Shown here piece after piece: positions 2,862-54,621 of a stretch of DNA of 64,000 nucleotides. Every line of letters starts with the position of its first letter. Positions within the stretch are counted from its first letter, which is position 1. The notes below the pieces were generated by a model. The model did not search any database, was not told the origin of the DNA, and saw nothing but the letters and a program-made list of their open reading frames with translations. This DNA is from Bifiguratus adelaidae (Eukaryota > Mucoromycota > Endogonomycetes > Endogonales). The stretch is from the NCBI GenBank assembly GCA_002261195.1, contig MVBO01000025.1, positions 94,114 to 158,113 on the forward strand, given 5' to 3'. Both the position numbers and the translations under genes were made by a program.

Positions 2862-5159
2862 TTAGGCTCGCGACTCCTCGACTTCTTGTGCAGTCGTCTT
2901 TTCGTCGGCCGCAGGCGTAATTTCGTCGTCAGATGATTCTTCATCCTCAGCATACGAAGGCGCCTTTTTGGCCCACTCAACAGCGGCAGGAGGCACCAAT
3001 AAATTCAAGGCCCAGAAAGCCAAGCCGGACATGAGAAATCCAATCATCCATGCCATATTGAACAGTTGAGTAAGACCCACGGTAACCGTGACATTGGTGT
3101 CCACGGTGGCAATGAAGCCGGGAAGAAGTGGCACCACTGGAGGCCATCGCGTGAGCGTTGCACATGCAGAGGAGAATTACATACCTCCAATGAGCCAAGC
3201 GGCAAAAGCTCGCCAATTGATTCCAAAATTGTACCAATAAACGCTGCTCTTGTTGCCCAGGTACATGTCAGGGACATTGATACGTTGACCGAGAACGCAA
3301 AAATAGTTGAAGACCATGATACCGGTGACGGGACCTAGATGATGGCAGACAAAGCATGACTATAGGCCCAAGTGAAGCTCTCATCGACGTGTACGTACCA
3401 AGGAAGACAGAGTAAGCGGAGAGAACGTTCAAGAATGTGTTGGCGCTACTCAGAAAATACCTGGATGGAGCGTCAACAAGCATTCAAATTACGCTCAAGG
3501 CAGTCATACCATGGGCAAAGAGCAATAGCAGACAAGCCAACAATATAAGCACCACGAAGTTGAGAAATGTATCGGGGCAGTAAGCCGCTCAGGTCAAAGG
3601 ACCCAGGCACAATGTTGGCCATATTGATACCGAGCTGACCGAGAATGAATGCAAGTGAGACAAAGAAGGCACCTGCACGAGCTCCCGGTTGACCATCAGC
3701 CTGGAAGGCGGAAATGACGACATTTGGATCCCACATCAACTGGATGAAAGGTCAGACATGAACTATGTTGCATGGCATCACAGCAATCTTACGGGTTGAT
3801 CAGGGTATATCTGCTGACAGGCGGCTATGCAAGGAAAATGTGAGGGACTTGTTTGAAGTAGACGTTGTGTTCTACTAACTTACCAGCAACGAGAATGCCA
3901 AAAAGAGCGACAACAACATTGATGATGGGAGATGTGACCAATTGAGGATAGAATTGATCCGAGGGACGACGCGCATACCGCGAGGTATCGGGGGTGTTGA
4001 CAATACCAGCAGAGATGCCACCGACAGCCGCGGAAATTGCAAATACAAAGGACCAACCGAGATCGGAGCTATCTAGGCTGCTTTGTTGATAGATCAATCC
4101 GCCTAAACCCTTGGATTTGGTCACTGCCCTATAGATGTCGTCAGAACTGGGGTTTAGTCTGCGAATATGCCCAAAACATACCAGATAAGAAGGATTAACA
4201 TGCCGGCGGGGCAGCAGATGATTTGGCATAAAAAGAGCCAGCGAAGCCGATGCAATGGAAGTCAGGCAAAGCACCTAATTACCCTGTCAATGGTGCTGTC
4301 AATCGTTGACCTCCGTGGCTTACAATTGCAGGGCCCAAAAGAGGCAGAACGCAATGAAGACTTGTGTGGTCAGCCCGCTCGACTCGGGAAAGACATTTTG
4401 CATGTTTGCAAACTGAGGTGCCAATGCAGTGATCAAATTGCTAGTAGTGTATCTCAGTGTCTCTGCTTTCTCCGCGTACACATGAACAAGTCTACTTACA
4501 CGACAGATTCAGCTCCAAAGTAGGTTTGCGTTGCCGTCCAGATAAAGGTAAGGATGACCCGATTGAGGATCGGCCAGTAAGCTCCATTGATACCCCAGAC
4601 CACTATCCAGTATTGAGTATATTTTGCACGAAGCAAGAGATGAAAATCTTACCTCTACTGTAGGCAGGATAGTTGATATGATAGGTGGCACTAGCCACGC
4701 CATTGAAAGCACTGGCGATACCAGCGATCAAGTAACCAATAAACACCGCAATGAGCGCTTGCCTGGGAAATTGAGCGTGAGAATCTCGGATACACCCCTA
4801 GCCTTCCCGTGTCAAAGCTTACCACCAGACCAACCCTAGTGCAATCATTGAACTTCCTGTGGTCCATCCCGCTAATTCTACCGTGAGTCCTCGAGAACAC
4901 AAAAATTGAGACATCTGTACTGATCTCACTTACAAATGTTGGCAGCTATGAAGACGAAGTCGACAATATCACTACAAGATCATGACAGCTAGATCCCCAA
5001 AAACATACCACCCGAACATGTATATGCAATGTAATTGATCGTCGTCCAATTTCTCTTTTCTTTGGGCAGTGGTAAAATGTCCTCATTTGCAAACCGAGTA
5101 GCCGCTTCTCCACCATCCGAAACTCGGATCTTTTCATCCAGACGTTGCAAAAAGCCCAT
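2862..5159 (-). CDS. NCS1-family nucleobase/allantoin-type permease
   Basis: Minus-strand gene broken by many short introns; the last one (3137-3184) is secure and joins ..FAAWLIG to VVPLLPGFIATV. Family signatures in order: the N-terminal cytoplasmic stretch ending LPLPKEKRNWTTINYIAYT, then AGWTTGSSMIALGLVWW, then near the middle SYARRPSDQFYPQ-like and PNVVISAFQADGQPGARAG, then INMANIVPGSFDLSGLLPRYI, and last WMIGFLMSGLAFWALN. These match fungal NCS1 (Fur4/Dal4/Fui1-type) plasma-membrane transporters that take up uracil, allantoin, uridine, cytosine or thiamine with protons. The C-terminal tail is acidic (DEESSDDE), a plausible endocytosis region. The start at 5159 precedes MGFLQRLDEKIR. Neighbouring purine-degradation genes suggest allantoin or a related ureide as substrate; that is inference. 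Several internal exon edges are unresolved. Confidence 0.85.
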
Positions 5160-25127: not shown

Positions 25128-26204
25128 GTTGGAAGAGAAGTAGGGCGGAAAACGTTGCTGGCAATGATATCAAGTGCGTAGGTCACGTGACTATAACCAG
25201 AAAGCATTGTGTTTCGACCTAGCTTAGGTTGACCTTTGTTCCCTGCATCATCATACTATATTGGCTTTTAAGTGGCAACGACATGAGTGAAGTTCTCCTA
25301 CTTGATCGGTCAATTGGAGGCAATCTGTAGCCAAGCCAAAGCGACCGTGGCAAGACCTTTCGGAACTGACCGTCTTAGGTCTGCCAGCCTCTCTGCGATC
25401 TCTGTCTTCCTATGACGGCGCCTGGCACTCAAATTGCGGTTATCATTGTCGGTTTGTACGTTTCCTCCTGCTCTACGGCAAACACGCTACGTCTACGCAA
25501 GTAGTGAAAGTCTGTCAGCTGGTTCTAGGTCAATGCGAACAACCGACCTCAAGTGGCCGCGGTGGAAGCGCCTAAAACAGTCATTACGCCTGCCTTCCAG
25601 ACAAGGCGTTATTGAAATTCCATTTGTCAGACTCAATATGGGCTCGACAATCAAGCTTATGGCTTTTGCTCGCTAACGGGACTGGAGTACCGAGCCTGCT
25701 TATGCTGATTCTTCAAGCGCAAGAGTCGTTTCCGGAACTCGATGGCGGCTTTCGTACTTCACTCAGCTATCAATTAAGCTACCTTAAGGGTCTTTGTAAT
25801 CCCCTCTTGAACTTGCCATGCTAGAACCGGCCTTGGTTGCGATATTTCATTCCAATTTAGACTGTCTTGTCATGTGAGGCAGCTTTCTTCGTAGCAGCAT
25901 GAGATGAATCTCACCGACCGAATCCGACGTTGAGACGATTCAAAACATATTAGCAATATTGGACGAGGTGTAGGCAAAGAATGCTCACCATCTCATCAGT
26001 GATTAGATGCCTGAATACCTTGACGCTTCTCGGCAATTGGATCGAGGCATCGACCTCCTAGAGTTAAAGAGGTCTTACTGTAATATTGTAGCTGAAGGTC
26101 TGACTCTGAAAATTCGCTTAAAGATTTCGTCAGGTACAATATCCGTCATTGAGCAGAGCTGGGATCACAAAGAAAAGGAGAACCAACGCTTCTCATATGA
26201 AATG
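25128..26204. other. Intergenic, no secure gene
   Basis: A frame from 25412 begins MTAPGTQIAVIIVG, like the dinucleotide-binding start of a flavoprotein, but it stops quickly and no downstream exon restores a family motif. It may be a dead fragment. Otherwise nothing is seen before the footprint island begins. Confidence 0.4.
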
Positions 26205-27461
26205 TACTGTACTGTACATGTTTCTCATCCCGCTAACAAAATGTTATAGTAACTACATGCGTGTAACTCATATTTGGCCATGACAGCGAGAAGACCGTAA
26301 ATTGTGATTAAAAGCCTCTAGTAAAATGATAGTGACAATCCGTTGTGTCTAAAAGGCCCTTGATACTGTGTTGCGGTCGCAAGAAATAAGAATGATAATG
26401 TAGTACAGTGTTGAACGCTACTGTACTGTATACAGTAGAATGATATGGAATTGATGGAACTCTTTCGGTTACATTAAATTGTTGCTTGATATCGTCTTCC
26501 CTACAGTATTCTACGACTCGCAACTACGGGTTATTTGCGCAATTTGCTCAGTTTGATTGAGGTCGAGAAAATCGTTTACAGTCTTACAGTATTGTACAAT
26601 GGTACAGTATCACAAACTATGAGTTTACTACTGTATTTATAGAACTGTACTGTACCTCTGCAATCCAAACTTAAGGTAATATATACTGTACAGTACAGTC
26701 ACATCTCTCAACAGATGGTTCACACTGTACTGTGCTGATTGATTACTGTAGCGCAATGGGAAACACACAGTATGTACTCTGTCCTACAGTACGGTACCTT
26801 CTGTTTGCCTTGCCGAAGTTTCAGACTCCTTGACAAGGAAGGATCACTTTTTCTACTGTACAGTATATTCTGCGGTAGCCTGGTTATAGTCCATTACAGT
26901 ACTGTACACCAGATTAATGAACTTTTCTATTTTCTTGACCGTTCAGATTCGTGGCATCTGAGTGAGATGTGGTCATCTTTCATCTCAAGTCTCCGGACAG
27001 ACGTCTCACCTACAGCACTGTACCTCAGGATGGCCTCAGATCTCAGCTGAATGATTAATCCATTTCCTTTCCAATTCTAGCTTACTGTACAGTATCTCAG
27101 TTGAGATACCATGAGCTGTCGAGAGATTTCGGCGCAGCTATTACAGTCACACTAACAACTAAGATAGCTTGCAGCAGTTGCTTGTTGCTCCATTCCCAAC
27201 ATAAAATCATTAAATTTCGCTCTTTACAATAAAAATTCCAGTTACTGTAGAAGGTACAGTAGAGTTAAACGTTTTGATCGTTGGAAATACAGTACCGTAC
27301 TGTACTGTAGGTTTGGATAAATTTATCCTCTGCTATTCGTGTAGCTGCTGTTACTGTATCTATGGAACCCGTTACGGTATTAACTTCGCATTATCCATAC
27401 CGACACTCTGTAGGAAGGTCTACATCGTCAATACGCTTGAGGGTAAGCAACTGCACATGTA

Positions 27462-29074
27462 CAGTGGCAGTCAATAGCGTCCCAAGAATTGCCTATTTTG
27501 ACTTTGACGCGTAATTGCGTAACACCCGAAGCAAGTGGGGATTCCAAACTTCTATCAGCCATACATGTGTCCTTTGGCTATCATCTGCCTGAGTTTCAGC
27601 TTCTTAGCCCTTCTGGTGCCGTCACAATCAATGCTAGAAGGCCATAAATTCCTTGGGACAGTTTTGTCCCTGCGCGTCGGACAAATTTGGGAAGGCAAGA
27701 ACTCCTTGTACACATACCATTGGCCAATGGCGTGCCTAGTGTAACATTTAGAGGGTACGCGCTATGTATATAAGCTTCAAAATCCCCAGAAGCCCCCCCA
27801 ACTGTCGCTCCTGCAGCCAGTTTTGTTCAAACAATGGGTCTCAGCAACGCCAAGGCAAACAACATCAAAATGCTCCACCAGAAAGGCTATTCTGTCCGCA
27901 AAATCGCATCCGAGACCGGTATTTCAAAGTCTACGGTACATCGGTATACCTCAAGCCTGCCTGATGGGCCGCCAATGAACGTCGGTGGGCGTCCAAAGGC
28001 CCTCGGCACCCGCGAAATTAACACCATACGCAAGCTGATCTGCAGCGGTGAACACGATAATGCGGCGGCAGTTTCTCGGTGCCTCGAGTCAGATTACCAC
28101 CTGGCTGTCAGCCCAGCTACAGTTCGTCGGGCGCTGCGGTCAATTGGGCTCGTTTCAGCCATCAAAAAGAAGAAGCCTCTGCTCAGCAAGTAGCACCGAC
28201 AAGACCGCTTAGACTTAACCGATCGGCATTGCGACTGGACTGTGAAGGATTTCAAGTCCATCTTGTGGTCGGACGAGACCAAAATCAACTTTTGGGGTAG
28301 CGATGGCCGGCATTATGTATGGAAAGAGCCGGGAGAAAGCCTCAGTGATCGACTTGTTCAGCCTACGCTCAAACGCAACGGAGGACATATCATGATCTGG
28401 GGCTCGTTTATGTTCCACGGCAGGGGCGATCGCGTTCACATCGAGAACACTATGAACGACCAAGTCTATTCTGTGATCCTGAAGGAGAATGTGCCTCAGT
28501 CTTTACGGTATCTCCGTCGAAATGTCTCGGAAATCATCTTCCAGCAAGACAATGATCCCAAACATACGTCGAAATTGGCACAAGATACCATGGATGATAT
28601 GAGTTTGGACGTTCTACTGTGGCCAACGCAATCCCCAGACCTCAATCCAATCGAACATTTGTGGGACTATCTCAAGAAAAGGCTCGCCAAGTACAACACA
28701 AGGGCATCGGGTGTTAAGGAACTTTGGGACCGGATACAGGTGGAATGGAGCAATATACCTGCCGATTTGTGTGCGAAGCTAGTATCTAGCATACCTGATA
28801 GAGTCCAAGCTGTAATTGCAGCAAAGGGGGGCTACACGAAATACTAATAAATGGAGATTAAAGATTTCTGGTGGGTCGGGGACAAAAGTGTCTCAAGGAA
28901 TGGCCCGTCCTCTAGGTTTAATTGTGACGGGACAAGAAGGTCTAGAAGCTGTAAACCGAGCATATGATAGCCAAAAAACAAGGCTACATACATTAGGAAG
29001 CTTTGGATGGTTGTTGCGCAATGGCTGGTTAAAGCCAAATTAGGCAATCCTTGGGACGGTTTTGATTGCCACTG
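27462..29074 (+). mobile_element. Tc1/mariner element, complete ends, one nonsense codon
   Basis: A 1,613-base element flanked by TA target duplications (27460-27461 and 29075-29076). Its ends are CAGTGGCAGTCAA on the left and TTGATTGCCACTG on the right. The inverted repeats are long: about 210 bases with an internal repeat of the terminal CCTTGGGAC..GTTTTG motif (27650-27670, 28886-28905), the IR/DR layout of Sleeping Beauty-like elements. It encodes one transposase frame. The arms differ from each other by scattered substitutions, so the copy is not recent. Confidence 0.93.
27834..28847 (+). pseudogene. Tc1-type DD34E transposase, interrupted by one TAG
   Basis: The frame begins MGLSNAKANNIKMLHQKGYS at 27834 and runs to 28847, about 338 codons, broken only by TAG at 28191-28193 in the same frame. 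N-terminal paired-type HTH domains: KGYSVRKIASETGISKSTVH and then the second HTH around AVSPATVRRALRSIG, with GRPKAL (GRPR-like hook) between. Catalytic core: ILWSDETKINFWG (first D), IIFQQDNDPKHTS (second D), and SPDLNPIEHLWDYLK (E), with 34 residues between the second D and the E, the Tc1 spacing. The TAG is one transition from CAG (Gln). As it stands the copy should not make a full transposase. Confidence 0.93.
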
Positions 29075-29184
29075 TATAGGATTGGGCGTCAGAGTGTCCG
29101 AAAGAGGATATCTTTACAGTACAGTACTTTCTCGGTCAATTCCGTGAGTCCCAGCAGCTTTTTGCGTTCCAAAACAATAAAAGA

Positions 29185-29245
29185 TGTACAGTAGCACGCA
29201 GACCGGAGTCCCTCTTAATCAACCCTAGGGCCGTCCTACTTAATT
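29185..29245 (+). repeat. Probable 5' LTR fragment of the gypsy element
   Basis: TGTACAGTAGCACGCAGAC begins a stretch that recurs at 33632 with a shared CCCTAGG about 40 bases on. It starts with TG, as LTRs do. The full LTR length could not be set. Confidence 0.5.
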
Positions 29246-31082
29246 AACTTCATCTCTGCTCAAGAAAGAAGACCCTTTTTCTCATCCCTTCAGCCTCGCC
29301 TTCTACAGTGATAGCGTCGGGCATACGGTATCCCCCGACCTTGATTTTTACTTGCACCCTTGAACCTTAGGCCATTTGTAACCCCTTGCGTTTGCATGCA
29401 TGGTTACTTCGTATCGCTCGCAGTCACAAGACGACACTGACGCGAGACACACCAAGAACCTTTCGAAGATTTGCCCACCGAAAGACCTCAAGACATGGAC
29501 CCATCAAATATGCAAAGCGTACTTCATGCCATTCCGGAGCACTTAGAGAGAATTAATGCAAGGATCACTTCTCTGGAGATCATGAACCATAGAGACGAAC
29601 CCTAGAGCAACACCCAAGGGAGAAACACCAAAAACATTTCTGCCTCTATGAATAGCCTAAAGCTGGATAATCCACCGATTTACAGAGGGCAAAGAACTGC
29701 AGCTGCCGTTGAAAACTGGTTGTGGCAAGTGGAGACGTACGCGGATCTTTATGCCTTAGGCGACAAGCTCACCCGTCAAACTTGCAACGACACTACTGAG
29801 GGAGGAAGCGCAAACCTGGTGGAGGAACCATTTGCGAAACACGCCGGCTAGTCAACGTATTTATACCTGGGACAACATCTGCGACGGCTTGTAAGAAGAG
29901 TCCAAGCCGGCTATTAGCGAGCGAGCTATCCGCAACCGGTATATGCGACTGCAACAGACCGGCAGTTTCATCGATTATACGAACGAATCGGGAGATCTTC
30001 TGCTTCTGCTCGGTAACATGGTGTCGCAACGAGATGCGTAGATATCCCTATCTAGATGGGTTTAAGACGGCGACCCGCGACCTGCATCGAGGTCGTTGAA
30101 GACATTCGACGAGGCAAGCGTATGGCCACTAGGTTCCAAGCCGTTCTGCCAATTTCAACCGAAGCCCGCGAAGAGCGAGACCATATGGCGTAGCCATTTG
30201 TGCCCGCCTTTCGATACCATTAACGACTCTGTCGGTGGTGAAGTCCGCATGATCTTTGACAATATCAAGGTGTTGACTCCGCTTGGTCTGCAGGAGCGCC
30301 AGCGCTGTACGAATAGGTCTCTGCCTACGATGCCGCTCCCCACCGAAAACACAATCGCCGCGCCATACGACGACACCGCGCCTCAATAACATCGAGGAAT
30401 AACCCCCAGAAGAACAACCGGAGTCGGAAAACGACGATCGACAGTAGAAGTGGGAACATCTACTGTCAACAGTCAAGAAGTTCCCGAGAGCAGACACACC
30501 TCTGCGGCTTGGTCACCTTGGACAAGAAAGTACGGATACATCATCGACATTGTTCACAGTGCAGGGTTATCTCAACGGCTACTCCGCCCGCTTACTCATA
30601 GATAGCGGTGCGTCTAGTAACTTCGTTGACGAGAACTTTGTAACTAAAAGCAACGAAATGAACAAGTCTCTGAAACTTTATCCTGCAGTTGCCAAGTTGA
30701 CGGATGGCTGAGAACGCAATATCGATGGGAAGTCAAACATTACACCATTAGAGTTGCCAATTATAAGGACGAGTTATCCTTCAATATCTTCGGCCTCAGT
30801 AGCTACGATGCAATCCTCGGCAAAGCTTGGCTCAAAGGGATCACTCCCGAGATCGATTTAAGAAGACGTGATGCGATTCATACACAATAGGGAAGCAGTA
30901 GAGACACGATCAGACGAGCATCCTTCGCAATAAGTCACACCGATTCAAGTCGTCGAAGAATATGTCCAAAGTTTTGAGCTAACCGTAGGCAACCTACAGG
31001 AGGAAGGCGCCTGTTTGGGGTCTTTGTAACGCCACCAAATGTAGAGGAAGAGCTGCCTCAAACCAGTGACAGCCACCCCAAG

Positions 31083-31433
31083 ATGTCCGCCTTGCTACAA
31101 GAGTATGAGGAAACATTTCCTTCTGAATTGCCTGCGGGCTTACATCCTAGTCGGCCCAACTCCGATCATGAAATAGTGTTGGAACCAGCCACCACCCCGC
31201 AAGCGCGTTCGCCATACCAAACTTCCCTTAAGGAACTCGAAGCCTTACGTCAAGAAATCGACACAAGGTTGGCTAAAGGTTGGATCAGACCCACCTGCTC
31301 ACCGTGGGCTGCGCCCATGTTATTCGTCAAGAAGCCGAATGGGACGCTGCGCCTTCGTCATGATTGCCGAATGCTAAACAAACACAGCGTCAGAAAGCGA
31401 TATCCGTTAACTTTGATGCAAACGGCTGATTGA
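31083..31433 (+). pseudogene. Gypsy reverse transcriptase, N-terminal fragment
   Basis: Contains ELPAGLHPSRPNSDHEI, then ARSPYQTSLKELEALRQ and GWIRPTCSPWAAPMLFVKK with LRHDCRMLNK, the standard start of Ty3/gypsy RT (finger and first palm strands). It loses frame after RYPLTLMQTAD. Confidence 0.9.
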
Positions 31434-31603
31434 CCTCGTTAAAGACGCTAATTTTCTCCACGCTGGACTTACATTCTGGACATGACAAGTTCGAGTGAAA
31501 GAAAGCGATACTCTGAAGACAGCGTTCAAGACACGCTACGGGTCAAACGAATGTTTAGTAATGCCGTTTGGATTAACGAACGCCAACGACGTTTCAGGCG
31601 CTA

Positions 31604-31813
31604 TTGAATCACTTGATCCGACCTTACCTTGATCAATTTGTGGTCATATACATTGACGACATCCTGGTGTTCTCGCGAAACGACGAGGAGCGTTTGGACC
31701 ACCTACGGACAGTGTTTGAGATGCTAAAGAAGGAGAAGCTTTACGTCAAACGAAGCAAGTGTAAATTCTTTCAAAGAGGCCGTGCCATACCTGGGACGTA
31801 TTATTACTCGTGA
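31604..31813 (+). pseudogene. Gypsy reverse transcriptase, catalytic fragment
   Basis: Frame with DQFVVIYIDDILVFSRN, which includes the YIDD catalytic pair, then HLRTVFEMLKKEKLYVKRSKC and a frameshift inside KFFQRG. Belongs to the same element as the frame 170 bases upstream. Confidence 0.92.
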
Positions 31814-32706
31814 CGGCGTCAAAGTGGACGAGAACAAGGACCCAATCAATCAAAGAATGGCCGAGGCCTCGCAATGCGCACGAGATACGCTCATTCTTGG
31901 GATTGGGTAATTATTATCGCAGATTCATTTAGCTATACGCGCGAATCACCGCCCCACTTACCAATCTGGCGCGCCAAGCTGTGTCCTTCCATTCCCACAA
32001 GCTTACCGATGCGGAGACAAGGTATCCGATACACGAGAAGAATTACTAGCGATTATGTTGGCGCTGAAAGAATGGCGGTGTTACCTGCATGGATGTCAGA
32101 CGACAATCTATGCTGACCACGAGCCACTCACGTGTTCCCGACGCAGTCGACATGGAGCGACCGCGAAGCCAGGTGGCAAGAGAATTGGCAGTGTTTGACG
32201 TGACAATCCTATACCAGCCCGGCAAGCTCAACGTTGTAGCAGATGCTATCTCGCAGCGCCCAGATTGGGAAAGACGAAACGCTCAGCCGACAGAAGCGAA
32301 TGCTGACGCCCTGCAAGCCTTCACCCTATCGACAATTGACAGTAACCTGAACAGCAGATCCTTGCAGCAACACGAGAAGATGACGCATTCGGCGAGGAAT
32401 GGGAAGAATTGACGGAAGATGCAAAAAACGAGGACGGAATCAGGAAGTGTCAGGGACTACCGACGATAGGAGCCCTTATCTCCGTAACCAACGACAGAGA
32501 TCTACGCAGACAATTGCTCGGCCATCTTGGGCAGGACAAGGCGTATATCAATTGAGACGAGCCTTCACCTGGCCGAATATGCGAAGGATGTCAGAGATTT
32601 CGTTAGCGGTTGCCCCTCATGACAACGCAGCAAATCGTCGAACATTCACCCGGCCGGTCTTTTGCAACCATTGCAAATACCGAGCGCCAACAGGAGCGAG
32701 ATTGCG

Positions 32707-32829
32707 ATGGACTTTATAGTGGGACTGCCGGAAATAATCCGTGGACATGATTCGATACTGGTAGTAATCGACAGGTTGAGCAAGATGGCTCATTTGATCC
32801 CGACGAGGACGACAATTTCGGCGAAGGAA
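32707..32829 (+). pseudogene. Gypsy integrase core fragment
   Basis: MDFIVGLPEIIRGHDSILVV followed by IDRLSKMAHLIPTRTT is the first part of the rve integrase core with its catalytic D (in MDF). The match ends abruptly at about 32829 where Tc1 terminal sequence starts, so the second and third catalytic acids are missing. Confidence 0.88.
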
Positions 32830-32832
32830 CGG

Positions 32833-32891
32833 CGCAATTACGCGTGTCAAATCAAAATAGGCATTCCTTGGGACGGTTTTGACTGCCACTG
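32833..32891 (-). mobile_element. Remnant of a second Tc1 end
   Basis: Read on the minus strand this 59-base stretch repeats the left terminus of the element at 27462: CAGTGGCAGTCAA, then CGTCCCAAGGAATGCCTATTT, then CGCGTAATTGCG, next to a TA. No transposase or opposite end is attached. It truncates the gypsy integrase. Confidence 0.85.
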
Positions 32892-33005
32892 TATTGTACC
32901 CCCCTTACCGAAGACAAGCCCACGCGGTCCTTGACAAGCTTTCTGTACTGTATATCAGTTGTTCTTGGAAATGGATTCTGCCTTCCAGATCACCAAGTGT
33001 CCCTT

Positions 33006-33037
33006 TACAGTACAGTACAGTACAGTACTGTACAGTA
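33006..33037. repeat. Five-base ladder TA(CAG/CTG)TA x6
   Basis: Thirty-two bases made only of TA followed by six units, in order CAG, CAG, CAG, CAG, CTG, CAG, each closed by TA. Shorter ladders occur at 27288-27309 (four units, one CCG) and 34953-34969 (three units). Confidence 0.95.
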
Positions 33038-33631
33038 CTTACATTACATTTGATGCTAAAAGGAACTTCAAGTCTTATTCATTCTACAGTAAACAACGGG
33101 TTCGCAGAGAAAAGAGTTTTTCCTACCGCCCTGTTGTACAGTGCAAATTTCACTATTGATACAGCATACTGTACGGAAGAAGCATGTGCATGCAAGATGA
33201 TAAGCGAAGTGGCGCAGCGGTACATTACGGTATACTGTATTGATGGAGAAGAGGCCAGAAGAGGGAGCCCTGTGAGACTGAATTGTCACCCGTTCTCGGA
33301 AACTACAGTAATTATCCGTGGGGGAATGCTTATCCAGGTCATTTACTGTATGTATTGCACAGTACTGTCAGTACTGGAAAGCAGGCAAGCCATCCCGAAG
33401 ATACAGTACTGTATAGTGCTGCTCTGAGACCAACTGTGTTCAGAGGGCGAGTTAGTGAACGAAATATTTACAGTAGGTACTGCACAGTACTGTACTGTAG
33501 ATCCGTGCTTGAACAAGTTTTGCTTCCCTTAAAAAGCACTGCGTAGAGGTACAGTAGTCTTCTCGTCGTCAAATGTGTAAGTCAAAATACTGTAATGTGA
33601 GATTTTGAATATCCATTCAGCATGCGCGCGC

Positions 33632-33700
33632 TGTACAGTAGCACGCAGACGGAATTCGCTCTCTTACGCAATCCCTAGGACCATTCTACACTATTTACAT
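33632..33700 (+). repeat. Probable 3' LTR fragment of the gypsy element
   Basis: Starts TGTACAGTAGCACGCAGAC as at 29185, with the shared CCCTAGGACCATTCTAC region. The two copies differ at roughly a quarter of positions, so the element is old or the sites are independent insertions. Confidence 0.45.
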
Positions 33701-35772
33701 GTACAGTATAGTACAGTACTACAGCTTACCGTAGGAACGGTAAATGAAGTATGTGCAGTAAAGCTAATCTGTAGCGCATGCTGGAATTTTACAGTAACTC
33801 TTCAGCGATCTCTAGCTTCAAATAGACTATCATCTATTATAACTACTGTTCCCTTTCAATGTACCCTTTTTTATCCCCTATACAGTATTGTAGTTGACGT
33901 CAACGATACTTTGATCCTCGAATGCAATCCGTAATGACACCCTGGAGGATAATTGGGAGTGCGTGCATACTGTACTGTAGTGTCGGATTTTGAGACGTAA
34001 TCTCAGTTGAGACTAGAGATGAGCCTAGATAAGACGCGCTTGCTGAGATTGTGAGGAGTTTAGAAAGATTTTCCTGCAACTGAATTCGCCTATACAGTAC
34101 TTTATATTTCTCTTGAATATTAATTTTACAGTACTGTGGTCAACCATTAGTTACGCGAAATTTATTTACTGAACCTGAATTTTGATGTCAGTAAAAGTGT
34201 GCGCCTTGTTCACTTTTCTGCCCTCAAGAGTTGGCTTTTGCTACTGTATACTCTACTATGAAGCTACTACTGTACATTGCAGAATATTAAAAAGACTTCC
34301 CTTGCTGGTTCTCGATTTCAGAGAGAACGCAGAATGCTTGCCACTGAGTTTAACTTGCTTCATACGGTTGTGGTGGGTAGAAAGGTGACGACTCGAGGTT
34401 GCTAGCAGATAAGTAAACAAGAAGGTTCCTTTATCTAATTAAATATTTGGAATCTGAATATTAATGAGCTACTTCACACATTGTCTGGCATTCAAGTTCG
34501 CCGAGTGGCTGCAAGAAATGCCACACCAAGGAACTTGTTATAACTTGGATTCATTTTGTGTTACTGTACTCAGAATTACTTATACTGTATGTCTTAACAA
34601 TTTTACAGTACAGTATGTACTGTAGTGCAACATAATTCTGCAGACGTTGCTTAGCTACTGTACCTGAGAGGACCAAAGGAAAATAATAGTCATCGACGTT
34701 TATCTGAACTTCGGCGTAGGACCCTTGGCTACTTCACCTGAGACCTACAGATTTGAATTCTGCTGATGCCTACCACAAAGCCTAAGTGGCAAGAGCTGCC
34801 TACACGGCAACAGTATTGAATACTGTACAGTGATGATGTGCTATACTGCACGTTTACTGTATTGGACTTTCTTACTGTAGGAGCAGCATGCTGTATCGCA
34901 CCTTGACGAGGAAAGCTATGATACAGGAAAATGCTGTACAGTGCTGATAATATACAGTACAGTACAGTACAATCAAATCCTAATACTGTACAGTAACCTT
35001 TGTGATTGATTGCAGCATTGTGATCATCATTTCCAGCTGCGTATACTGTACTGTATGGATACAAGATTTGCAGTGGGGCTGTATATTGTAACCGGCAAGT
35101 GTGTGCAAGGGGTCGAATGCTTCATTTTATGCTTCTGATACTTTGTGGAGTTGTTCTACTGTAGCTGCAGATTACAGTAACCAAACTCGATGCAAGAGAG
35201 TCTTGCCAGAATTCTCTGCCATCCTACTGTAAAGTGAAATTCTCGTGTTCTATGGTACAGTCACTGTAATCCAGCAATTGTACAGTCCAGTATTTTTGCT
35301 CGAGAGACTGACTCCATTCCAAACGTATGGCTAAACCGAAGATGCAACTCATGCTGACGGAGACGCATGCTGTATGCGTTTTTGTAGTAGTATGGTGTTG
35401 GAGTGATGAAGCCAACAACTATTGGGTAACACCAGTCTCCTTGCACTCTTTTATTGATTTTAGTCGCTACTGTAGCATGTTACTGTATACTGTAATGCAT
35501 ACATTCTTTTGAGTTGCAATACTCTTTTTGTGCGTATCAGATCTGCATAGAGGACTGAACATTACTACTGTATACAGTACAGCTGTCAGTATCAACTGGT
35601 CTCGAAATGTTTTACTGTTCCCTTAACCACAAATACTACTACATCACTTGCCCGTGGGAGCTTTCTAGGCATGCAAATATTGCTTCCACTGGCGTCAGCT
35701 CTTACCCAAGAGAGAAGCACCTGATAGGCATGGCTCGAGCTTGAAGTCGATCACAGCAACAGCCATACAGTA

Positions 35773-36887
35773 AATGTCGCTATAAGTGGCTGGAGCGCTA
35801 GCATTGATGGCCATAGCAGTCCAGTGGGCCGGTCAAAGTTGCCATTCTTCATTCGTAATGCAAACCTATGTCATGTTATATATCCGTCAAGCGGTTAAGT
35901 GACTTTGAGAGCAAATGTTCACCGACAGCTGAACCAAAAGTGACTAATCATTGTTTGGCGCAAACGCTATCGAGATAAGAAACTGGTGGCAAGTACACGG
36001 TGGAAGTGCTTTATGAACCCAAAGAAATTTGGTGGGAAACTTCTTGTCTGTAGTCCGAGGCAGATCAACCTCCTATGTTGCAAAATGAATCGAAACCAAG
36101 CGAGATTTGGCACAAGTTTGTCGGACACCTCGAATGACCACTTTGACTAATCTCGACTTCGGCGAAGATTGCTTTCGCAAGCGAGCCTAAAGCGGTCCAA
36201 ACAACGTTGAGCATTCTCGACACGTAAAAGCGCGTCCCAAATTTTGTGGCCATACGCGCGCATAGGAGTTGGCAGTTCATTGACTTGCGCTCCCTGGAAC
36301 AATGTCAACATCCTGGGAATACTATGACATCGATGCCATACTATCGGAGCAGCAGCGTGTGCCCTGTACATTCAAATACAGCATACCCAACCATGCTTTC
36401 CTGGAGGGTGGTGAACAGCAAGGGGACGTACGTACTTTGGGAATCTCTGCTTAGCTCCAAAGTCTGACAATGCGCTGATGCAGCTGAAAAGTGGAACACG
36501 AGCTGAGCTACCTTTTTGGATTGCGGCAAACCTTGCGGCTGCAGATTTGACATCTTCGTCCACAACTTCGTCAGAGTAAGTGAGAGCGATATCTTATCGA
36601 AGAAGGTCTGATACACGATGATCAAAGAGCGAGTCTTATCGAGTTGCAAGTACCGAAACATTATGGCTCCAAAGTGAGGAACGCACTCGACGCGTCTCCT
36701 GTTAGCATCGACTGTAAGGCCTTGAGTCGATATTACTTCAGTTTCGGCCAAAAGTTAGTCAGCCTTATCGTTGCCGATGAATTGACGCGAAGCTTGCGTG
36801 AGGTGAGAGACATCATACATTGAATTCGAGCTTGCGAGAACCCTGACATTATATCGGTAGGCATTTCAGGCAAGACTCTCTGCAATC
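35773..36887. other. Intergenic with a possible decayed minus-strand frame
   Basis: Minus-strand frames at 36341-36751 (..FGAIMFRYLQLDKTRSLIIV..) and 36372-36563 (VDEDVKSAAARFAAIQK) look protein-like and could be neighbouring exons or one gene in two frames, but no join I tried gave a recognisable domain. I do not call a gene. Confidence 0.35.
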
Positions 36888-37101
36888 ATGAATCACGCAA
36901 TGATAGGGACCTCCATGGGGGAAGCAGATTTCCTTCAGATGCTGGATGAAACTGAAATAGATAGTACGTATGATTTTTGCGTACGCTCTCGTCGTTCTTT
37001 AGCTAACTTTGAACCCAGTCTACAAAGCCGGACAAGACAGTGCCATCATGCTGCGAAAATGGCGTGCAAATACGAATTACAGACTTCAGTCTGCTGTATA
37101 G
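36888..37101 (+). CDS. Small unknown protein, 52 aa
   Basis: Two exons, 36888-36963 and 37019-37101, with a 55-nt intron (GTACGT..CCCAG) join in phase to 52 residues: MNHAMIGTSMGEADFLQMLD..YKAGQDSAIMLRKWRANTNY. The second exon is basic and helical; no membrane segment or signal peptide. The clean phase-preserving intron and the sensible composition favour a real gene, but I recognise no family. It sits 150 bases before the SPX transporter on the same strand and could alternatively be an upstream reading frame in that gene's leader. Confidence 0.4.
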
Positions 37102-50835: not shown

Positions 50836-53800
50836 TTAGAATGCAGCGCGTACACGCATATCTTCAATCTTTTTGTGGACTTCTTCGACAGTCCGATCCA
50901 AATCCTCCGCGATACTACGCTTCTTATCTGCAGAGAGTAAATTAAAGCCTTCGCACAAGGTTCCGTCAATAACATTTCGAACTGGTACGTAAAAGCTACG
51001 ATAGGCCAAATGATCACGTCCCAACAATGGACCTCCTTCACTTCGCATATGGGCTTCCAATTGTTGAAAGAATTCCACATCCTCTTTGCTGATGAAAGGT
51101 ATGAAAACGCCAATGCCGCCAAGCAACGAAGAATATAAAAGCACCTCGCGACCTCCGGGAACCAGGATGGCTCGGTGAATCGACGTCAAAATGTCACCGA
51201 CATGGTAGTGAGCTTCGTAGTGCAATTTGTTGGCGGCACCTTGCAGATATGACCGCTCAATCATGACGCGGTTTCCAGTCGGGTCCTCATCAAACTCTTC
51301 AGATACTTCGGCGGGTAATCGGTCCACAAAGAAATTTCCAAACTTGTCACCTCCAGCCATAGTATCGTAATCAATCATGACAGTGCTTGTTAGCCAGCGT
51401 GGAGTGGTATCATCGGCAAAGATGAGGATGCGATTGTCCATATGCCGATAGATGGCATAATGAACTGATTCTTGCATATCGCCAATAATTATTCGATCAC
51501 CCTGATTGTGCAAAGACACAATGCACGTAGGGATAGCTTTTGACTCGCACTTTCGAAGCAGTTTCTTCTTTCCAAGATCATATATCCGCAAAGCCTTTCC
51601 GACACCAGCAAGCAAGCGACCTTGGAAGGGGAGGAGGGCCAGAGGAACATCGTCTACCTCTGTCTTGTAAACAAACTCCAAGGTGCCCATTTGATTGAAT
51701 CGATATAAGTGAAGGTAACCAGCAGAGCAGTTTCGAGGAGATAATGTGACATCTTTGCCAGTGCCGACGACCACGAACAATTCCTGGCTATGTGCGTGGA
51801 ATTGAACAACGCCGACACTGAAAGCAGCTTCGTTCTCTTCAAGCTCGATGACTTGTCTCGATTCTCCTCTGTAAGGATCGATAATGCGAATGCAGCTCGC
51901 CCATTTACCCGACTTGTAGCGCACAAGGCCGAATTGTTGAGGATCGAGATTTGTAATCTCTTCTTCGATATCGAAGCCTTCTTCCTCCTGAGAATTGAGC
52001 AAATGTCAGCCATTGCACCACAACACTCTCGCATGTGCACTCACCTTTTCTTTCAGGACCCTCGCCTTCTCCGCAGGCGAATACACGAAATGCTCAGCTT
52101 CCACAACGACGAAAACATGCGCCACTGGATGGTACATGAACTTTCTTGGGGTATATGAGAGCGGAATTGAAGTCTGATTAAACACCATGCCCAATTTCTC
52201 CACCATAAAAATCCTAAATATAAATCATCAGTCACCTACGGAATTCATGAGGCATGTATGGTTCCCAAGTTTTACCTGAGCGTGTTACCAGCCACCGCAA
52301 CCACACCTTCCGGACAAGGTTCGGACGTAAAACCACAACCAGATTCCAACATTTCGGTGGCGAGCGGTGTCATGACGATGCGTGATTGGAATGTGTACGA
52401 TAACCACGGACGTGTGGATAAGGTCAGTACAGCAGGTTTGCCTCCAATGTTGACGCGCTGCAATCTGACAGCTTTTGCTCCCAAAAAGCGCGTTCGAGAG
52501 TCTGATAATTGCCCAGTAACGCTGTCCAAGACTGTCCGTAGCATTACACCATTCGATAGACCAATGTGAAGGTATAAAGTTCCGTGTCCGGCGGCGGAAC
52601 CCGAGTCTGCCATCTCTACGACACACAAGCTCGAAGATACACCTTGCAACGCTTGCATGGACATGGACTCGAGGCACGCATTAGGATCCGTGCCAAAGAT
52701 GCGCACTGTGCCATCTTCGCAACCGACGGCCAAAAAGCGACTCCGTTGGCGACCCTCGGGCACGTCACCAAGTGCCAGGCAAGTGATCTCGGCACTCAAT
52801 TTCTTCCGTTCCGTTTCATTCAGTCGTCCACTTTGATCGAGCTCAAAGTACATGATCTCGGCGCCAGTGAGTGCAATTGCTACTTGTCGCGAATTAGTCG
52901 CTGCTTGGACGATTTCTTGGCCAGCTGAAGCTGCCCACCGATTCACCCGTCCGTCACCGAGAATATGTATGATACCGCCCGGATACACTTGAATCAAGGC
53001 ATCTTCGCCAATCTGCTGTATAGCCAGTGTGGGCGTGGTACCCAAGAATCCGGTATCCGTCACTTCTTCGACTGTTTCGCCGATAGCCAGAACAAGTGTC
53101 GCATTCACAAAAGACACCACAATGTAAGCATCGTATTCATCCGATCGTCGCACCTTGGTCGTCCAGACAGCTATTGGGCTACCAGGAAGCTCGGAGACCG
53201 CCATTTCCGTAATTTCCATACCATGTCGCAACGTTCGAAAGGTTGACCTCGCTCCTTTACCGCAGAGCGCGTATATTTGAGGTGTATCTTCTCCAGTCAG
53301 ATTCAAGACCTTTGCGTCCATAAAAGGTGCCATGGATGCCATCTCATCGACAAGCGAGAGGTTCTTTAGTGCACGAGGTTTAAAATAGACTAGTGGTAGC
53401 TCGGCGTCATTTTCAACCGTCTCCACGAAGTCTGCCGATGAGTACTCTATGTCGTCATCGTCATCACCGAGATGTTCGAAAGAATACAAGTGATGATTGC
53501 CAAATTCGCTGCCCACGAAGAGAAAGCCACTTCGCAGTATGCAAAGGCCGGCAGCAATAGGAACGGTGTCAAAGTACTTGATGGAAATGGATTTCGCCAC
53601 CCCTTCTTCATGATCAATAGTGATCTTGTAAAGGTCTCCTTCCTCACTTTGCGCCAAAAAGAAGAATTGCTGTACTTTGTTGACCCGCATCTTGTGCAAA
53701 ACCGCTTTGACGAGCAATAAACCTCTTTCAGAGTCTTCCAGAGGTTGAGCACGTCGCGGTATGGGAACGCGCAGCTCTGGCATATCTTGATGCTTGTAGG

Positions 53801-54621
53801 CGATGGAATTTTCGGAGCACACAATCACGCCACTGGGCCCATCCGTGCCACCGGGTACTTGAATTAACATGTTTGCCCTAGCATCCACCGGATCGCTCCA
53901 TTTACGAACAACATGGTTAAGTCCGAGATCCAGCTCGTAATAAGTGAGCATTTTTTCTGTATTTTGAAAGGTCTCGCCAGTAGGGTCTTGATCTGCCTCA
54001 GAATAGTCCACCTCGATGCAAGCGAAAATGGGATTTTCAAAGCCAACATCGAGCCCTATGCAGTCGTGTACCAGCGTATGTGATTTGTGAGCTTCCAATG
54101 GCGATGAAATTGTTAGTCGAGCAGCCGAGTCACGATTAAGAATATATACGAGCTTTTGCTTCTCAACGGCTCCAATCATGACAGCGCGACCCTTTGGGTC
54201 TGTGGCAAGATATTGCCCTGGTACGATCCGCCGTACACCTGACTTGCCAAATACCTCTTGATGGACCTTGTCAAAGACATTTCTCGTGGGATTGTATTCG
54301 AGTATGGTGATCGCGCCTGAATCCGATCCAACCACGATATAATCTGTATACAGGTCAGTCACCGCGTCAACGCGACCAGGTCAAGAGATACTCACCTTTG
54401 CTGGCACCCGTTAACCGAAACGGGGCCAAAGAACGCACGGCGCTAAAACATTCCCAGTCAAGGACACTGGCTATCTTGCCTGTAGCCGTGTCTGGTCTGA
54501 GTAATTCTATGCGTGTGTTTCTTGCTACCACGATCTCTTGGATCTTTTGCCCGCTAAAGTTGCCGAGAATACTAGCATTGACGACAGCTGCCGGGTTTAA
54601 ATTGAGATTGTAGAGGTACAT
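50836..54621 (-). CDS. RSE1: Splicing factor 3B subunit 3 (SF3B3/Rse1/SAP130)
   Basis: Starts [17 protein letters not shown] at 54621. Three introns: at about 54348-54396 (join [18 protein letters not shown]), near 52208-52274 and near 51990-52045. About 1,200 residues of WD-like propellers (MMS1_N and CPSF_A domains). Near-invariant runs: [84 protein letters not shown]-like [51 protein letters not shown] and the end [16 protein letters not shown]. It is a core subunit of U2 snRNP SF3b, which recognises the branch site. Rse1 rather than DDB1/CPSF160 is clear from these runs. It converges with the GATA-finger gene, 59 bases between stops. Confidence 0.97.

Follow-up and report, generated by a model that had tools for sequence, protein, structure and literature searches.

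Transposon activity is normally read from the copies that remained in a genome. For Sleeping Beauty, an engineered element, two consensus footprints are given, TACAGTA and TACTGTA (PMC4378557), which are described as arising from 3-base overhangs and end joining (PMC7827188), and its target consensus is reported as ANNTANNT (PMC2756404); in the work on the mouse genome covered by these sources the figure is about 100-200 candidate sites per tumour sample. Here we analysed a stretch of the genome of the fungus Bifiguratus adelaidae, called the window, which comprises the last 64,000 bases of contig C167 (158,113 bases; the assembly has 18.6 Mb in 286 contigs) and which contains a Tc1-family element within an island crowded with the same two heptamers. 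The heptamer TACWGTA (TACAGTA or TACTGTA) is referred to as a scar, and the islands are AT-rich segments dense in it; C followed by a number designates a contig of this assembly and L followed by a number a fetched stretch. All comparisons were made within this one genome, between paralogous copies. Our conclusion is that a Tc1 family whose ends are CAG moves mainly from one island to another and leaves end-joining footprints; it is very probable that these heptamers originated by excision of the resident family and that its insertion is almost wholly confined to the islands.

The first-pass annotation had counted by hand about 84 heptamers between 26205 and 35772 of the window and had read them as a field of excision footprints from many hit-and-run insertions. 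The exact count in this range is 84 (44 TACTGTA and 40 TACAGTA), with one more at 26076, and the proposed reading is supported by the inner triplets, by paralogues with a bare TA, and by the co-location with Tc1 sequences. Its statement that only two heptamers lie outside the range has to be corrected to six (4656, 13047, 26076, 40578, 54689, and 60892). The whole window holds 90, when 100 dinucleotide shuffles gave a mean of 4.24 and a maximum of 8. The edges of the island are sharp, with zero heptamers in 25250-25999 and zero in 36000-36999. Of the 297 TAs in the two main island stretches, 62 carry a scar, versus 5 of 2,389 in the rest of the window, a confinement of about 100-fold; in the three stretches around the transposon bodies, taken separately, the fractions are 20/101, 1/6, and 42/196. 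At gathering thresholds Rfam gave nothing in 26000-36000. Three results go beyond the first-pass annotation: comparable islands on many further contigs, nesting in agreement with repeated hits, and a target preference like that of Sleeping Beauty.

Similar islands are found across the genome. The double form TACWGTACWGTA occurs at least 274 times, versus 21 for the reversed control, and the complete listing of TACAGTACAGTAC has 72 entries, distributed over 26 contigs and separated by less than 10 kb within each; two islands on one contig were not seen among these 26. Our sample was formed by the window plus 24 stretches, one from each of 24 contigs (22 of those 26, C12, which was added from the TACWGTACWGTA search, and C112, which was chosen for its Tc1 match); C237, C240, and C279 fall outside it. 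Taking as an island segment any chain of 8 or more heptamers with no gap above 400 bases, we obtained 34 segments with 68,831 bases, 1,316 heptamers, and a GC content of 0.407, compared with 0.48 in the window. Scars make up about 10% of this DNA (6,580 of 68,831 bases), at a density of about 20 per kb, and the segments hold 43% of the 3,077 heptamers of the genome in 0.37% of its length. The remaining 1,761, some of them in unfetched islands, are spread over 18.56 Mb, that is, 0.095 per kb versus the approximately 0.066 predicted by the window shuffles. The islands are interior to their contigs on C44, C112, C167, C218, and C249, and the end of C209 carries five more heptamers. As separate observations, a lone double heptamer, TACTGTACAGTA, lies at C1:708913-708924, on a contig of more than 900 kb with no island among those listed, and in the first 4-5 kb of L019 (C218) 4,114 bases are N, ahead of its first heptamer at 4280.

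Among the 2,045 TANNNTA of the 34 segments, CTG (673) and CAG (643) stand far above every other triplet, the next being CAA (60), TTG (53), CCG (47), and CGG (41), all of which are one-step changes of CTG or CAG. The two main forms are used equally (p 0.42), and TAN{2}TA and TAN{4}TA show no comparable peak in the islands. If an insertion of five bases at TA had produced the scars, paralogous copies should differ by this length. Gap lengths between paralogous island sequences drop from 5 to 6, with 4 nearly as frequent as 5, and 32 of the 74 distinct 5-base insertion sites that passed the flank filter are TACAG or TACTG, while 8 are otherwise TA-flanked. Several of those 32 are one repeat position in several copies and so do not count as 32 independent events.

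The unscarred form, five bases shorter, was best observed in a 123-base repeat, which may be a conserved island element: it has at least 27 matches in the genome, the window copy included, 72-89% identical to the window copy, and every match listed is on a contig that has an island or the end of one. No Rfam match was found for it. Of 35 alignments of the query region, one was the window itself and 10 were short pieces; the other 24 copies were compared with the window copy, which is unscarred. In them, 34 scar runs were mapped. Of these, 29 coincide with a TA of the window copy, at repeat positions 25, 29, 47, 51, 74, and 85, and 131 aligned TAs are bare in other copies, so that the fraction hit is 29/160. 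Four more runs are at position 70, where the window has TG and at least 7 unscarred copies have TA, and one is at 45; 9 further runs are outside the aligned repeat. The scarred TAs vary between copies, and the same TAs are bare in others; the heptamers are therefore not part of a longer repeat. The alignment score rose for every one of the 40 scars when one 5-mer was removed (by +6.6 on average). The decoys improved in 3 of 7 cases for other TANNNTA (mean -2.4), in 44 of 221 for XYNNNXY (mean -9.3), and in 79 of 255 for TA plus any three bases, scars included (mean -6.4). Bare-TA paralogues also exist for the window scars at 29187 and 33634, both at the start of a repeat of which 10 copies were read (3 scarred, 3 bare, and 4 uninformative). 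With respect to the window, L020 has one extra scar beside 34583 and another at a TA that is bare in the window (L020:4418 and 4620).

Taking into account that each scar offers two TAs in place of one, random hits should give runs of geometric length, the ratio being the fraction of TAs hit. Runs of one to six nested scars number 889, 166, 27, 2, 0, and 1 (1,085 runs), which agrees with a geometric ratio of 0.176 (p 0.38); the run of six is in the window, at 33006-33037. In double scars the A and T forms are independent (48, 45, 37, and 36; p 1.0). The scarred TAs follow the ANNTANNT preference: A at -3 or T at +3 was observed in 62.8% of 567 isolated scars versus 43.4% of 2,386 unscarred TAs (p 1e-18). 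Finally, there are 564 more one-base variants of the heptamer than expected, with an excess at each of the seven positions, made up of 312 transitions and 252 transversions. This decay fits ageing neutral scars, and if they are neutral we estimate a mean divergence of about 6% per site.

Considering these results, the following course of events is proposed. The Tc1 element would insert at TA, which is duplicated. When it is excised, the terminal three bases at either end would remain as 3′ overhangs, CAG in both cases; these would pair with one A:A mismatch, and end joining would yield TA-CAG-TA or TA-CTG-TA with equal chance. As one TA would become two with every scar, later visits could nest and give (TACWG)n. 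Insertion would be restricted almost wholly to a set of AT-rich islands, probably heterochromatic and possibly centromeric, where the scars would accumulate to the density observed. The likeness to Sleeping Beauty as described in these sources is close, as both footprint sequences (PMC4378557), the TA target with a 5-base insertion, the match of the triplet to the element ends in both forms (PMC7827188), and the preference for ANNTANNT (PMC2756404) recur in the islands. In contrast to the footprints of the engineered element, the scars of Bifiguratus are natural, about 20 per kb, nested to as many as six, and concentrated in islands. The sequence features of the window island, in window coordinates, are as follows.

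26076-27358, no strand: left part of the scar island, with 27 TACWGTA (20 of 101 TAs scarred in 26060-27459).
27462-29074, plus strand: full-length Tc1-family element of 1,613 bases, with TA on both sides and no scar inside.
29115-29193, no strand: scars between the Tc1 element and the gypsy-like element, a nested pair at 29115 and one at 29187.
29193-32845, plus strand: decayed gypsy-like retroelement, with 0 of 166 TAs scarred.
32833-32891, minus strand: remnant of one Tc1 terminal inverted repeat, which ends CTG-TA.
32946-35772, no strand: right part of the scar island, with 55 heptamers (42 of 196 TAs scarred in 32892-35780).
33634-33700, plus strand: piece of the repeat start that also occurs at 29187, with a scar at the equivalent TA.
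34385-34507, plus strand: unscarred copy of the 123-base island repeat, the reference of the empty-site test.

The label gypsy-like is a reading of the sequence by the first-pass annotation and by ourselves, made without a profile search. The scar at 29187 lies in the TA that opens a repeat, taken as a long terminal repeat, and three other copies have there a bare TA. The lone terminal inverted repeat at 32833-32891 directly adjoins the truncated gypsy-like element.

The Tc1 element of the window starts with CAGTGGCAGTC and finishes with GATTGCCACTG. By eye its ends are CAG...CTG with TA on both sides, as the first-pass annotation had indicated, and from such ends the Sleeping Beauty rule predicts exactly the triplets observed. 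Its terminal inverted repeats are of about 200 bases and about 72% identical. The transposase occupies one frame of 338 codons at 27834-28847 (end stop included) with a single in-frame stop at 28191, and the two halves match helix-turn-helix domains (HTH_7 and others above the cut-off; HTH_Tnp_Tc3_2 below its own, 28.3 versus 31.5 bits) and DDE_3 (PF13358, E 2.3e-15). The DDE transposase with helix-turn-helix domains, the duplicated TA, and the inverted repeats place this copy in Tc1/mariner. It differs from the usual members in that its family resides mostly in islands, its scars far outnumber its copies, and its inverted repeats reach about 200 bases. Relatives of the transposase are at most 56% identical among the 120 matches listed. 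Within the genome, 16 of the 18 transposase matches are on contigs with islands, in agreement with the expected enrichment near Tc1 copies; of the other two, one is at the start of C261, outside the sample, and one is on C1 at 35% identity. Exact ends of the terminal repeat number 16, and 12 of them are in or beside islands or motif-bearing contig stretches, placed by reading and with thinner evidence for three (C152, C237, and C279). Three others are on C93, C262, and C280, outside the contigs examined, and one is away from islands, a single exact end at C221:52283-52295, about 45 kb from the island of that contig.

Other DDE_3 transposases lie on contigs absent from the TACAGTACAGTAC listing, C177, C207, C134, C28, C43, and C154 among others, and may belong to families with different target habits. 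Two such copies (L025 and L026) have 2 and 1 heptamers in 3 kb, and no clear inverted ends were found on inspection of these two. Since few heptamers surround the two inspected and the other transposases lie off the listed contigs, the island habit seems to belong to the resident Tc1 family, which is suggested, without being proved, by this contrast. The copies at C177:7678-8112, C207:380413-380895, C134:4090-4575, and C154:1527-2012 and those on C28 and C43 are in long frames, which reach 371-466 codons in the best cases.

Several observations weigh against attributing the scars to excision of the resident family within closed islands. There is a thin halo of 44 heptamers, versus 12.5 expected, in the 186,870 bases of fetched DNA and window that lie more than 500 bases from the segments, so that the confinement is strong but not total. 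Among the 74 insertion sites, 34 lack both the CWG triplet and the flanking TA. The ungapped test, in which joined flanks were searched for empty sites, discriminated poorly (75 of 1,123 scars versus 38 of 1,255 controls; 107 versus 89 at a looser setting); it is insensitive, and its controls have many self-matches, so it was not used as support. By alignment only 2 of the 64 scar runs of the window have a bare-TA paralogue, at 34562 and, unclear, at 35566. The fraction of TAs hit, 0.209, is near the nesting ratio of 0.176 but by our own estimate about 3 standard errors from it; the fraction is inflated because scars served to define the segments. As part of the scars were inherited in common, the number of events is lower than that of the scars. 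No intact transposase of the resident family was seen among the 17 same-family matches to a query made of the last 201 residues, the longest open frame being of 243 codons.

The transposon bodies are part of the same difficulty, since in the gypsy-like body of the window about 33 scarred TAs were expected and none of the 166 is scarred. The first-pass annotation had described the heptamer as absent inside Tc1 and gypsy bodies, which holds for this one and for the window Tc1 (0 of 76 TAs) and fails for the Tc1 relics elsewhere: the Tc1 matches at fetched loci, from 20 sources, together have 627 TAs and 8 heptamers. In the other gypsy-like matches a single heptamer was counted among 181 TAs. Judged by their divergence the bodies are not young: they differ by 18% between two gypsy-like copies, mostly by 5-10% among the better-kept Tc1 copies, and by up to 26% in relics. 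They may have arrived, already diverged, after most of the scars, or the element may seldom insert into coding bodies.

Of the other explanations, the one that survives best, although we hold it to be unlikely, is that the scars were made by another Tc1/mariner family, extinct or represented by small non-autonomous copies with CAG ends. CAG ends are not unique, other DDE_3 transposases are present, and the scars, with an estimated decay of about 6% per site, may on average be older than the better-kept Tc1 copies, which are mostly 90-95% alike. However, Tc1 relics of 74-89% identity are also within the island loci, and three quarters of the exact terminal-repeat ends (12/16) are in or beside islands or motif stretches; both point to the resident family as the probable author of the scars.

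It is also conceivable, with little chance in our opinion, that the element hopped everywhere and that selection removed the scars outside the islands. Five bases inserted into a gene shift its reading frame, and the halo described above is a small excess of heptamers outside the segments. A selection so complete as to leave 5 scarred among 2,389 TAs of the window, as against 62 of 297 inside, would hardly operate on introns and spacers, and few element copies were placed outside islands among the contigs examined. It is thus insertion, rather than survival, that appears to be biased. Slightly less room is left for the idea that duplication of island DNA, and not separate visits, produced most scars, which is very unlikely: L011, L014, and L024 do have an identical scar pattern in one copy of the repeat, and some repeat positions are scarred in 8-9 of the 24 copies, but the patterns differ between most copies, and long alignments between loci are few and largely within transposon bodies.

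That the heptamer is bound by a chromosomal protein (a factor of centromeres, pairing centres, or origins) and multiplied because such sites are selected is highly improbable. TACWGTA is nearly palindromic and clustered in AT-rich islands, and the 123-base repeat is common to them; such a site would not be expected to consist of clean 5-base insertions at TAs that differ from copy to copy and have bare paralogues, to decay at every position, or to nest near the law of random hits, and this reading was set aside on the empty-site and nesting results. Slippage of a TACAG or TACTG unit, for which the run of six units speaks, can be dismissed, since 889 of the 1,085 runs are single, run lengths match repeated hits, and slippage would copy one form, against which stands the independence of the two forms in double scars. 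A separate count of stop-free stretches (48 in the islands, 10 in the reversed islands) was not used, because reversed scars contain stop codons.

With the excision of the resident Tc1 family as the preferred explanation of the scars, the nature of the islands can be considered. Bifiguratus is placed with Endogonales. According to a review, CENP-A is retained in Endogonales, and its loss in the sister orders might be better understood from the centromere sequences of other Mucoromycotina (PMC9089191). By comparison with the mosaic centromeres of Mucor circinelloides, of the same subphylum, as presented in that review, the islands are likewise short, bear transposons, and share a common sequence unit; the unit of Mucor is a 41-base motif, whereas that of Bifiguratus is the 123-base repeat. 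Candidate centromeres are our best single guess for the islands, a tentative one, with generic heterochromatin as the main alternative. It is equally tentative that the Tc1 family hops from centromere to centromere, with scars amounting to about a tenth of the DNA and a supply of TAs that feeds itself; if it is a dweller of centromeres, these may cluster in the nucleus. Were the islands centromeres, they would offer candidate centromere sequences for a branch of Mucoromycotina said in the review to keep CENP-A, and the scar tissue would drive change of centromere sequence while keeping a countable clock of transposon visits.

Both the footprint and the element are of known kinds, and what is new, as far as we searched, is the density and the confinement; no published report of a dense, nested, island-bound scar field was found in the open-licence literature, which is not proof of absence. 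The expression used in the first-pass annotation, a new kind of genomic scar tissue, is thus fair for these two aspects and too broad for the scar itself. Here, even visits without a surviving copy can be counted and mapped, nesting gives their order and decay an approximate date, and the confinement shows in a natural setting where a Tc1 element tends to insert. Away from the island, the window contains at 52272-54362 a frame related to splicing factor 3B subunit 3, with 99% identity to a protein of Bifiguratus adelaidae, and one telomere array was found in the assembly.

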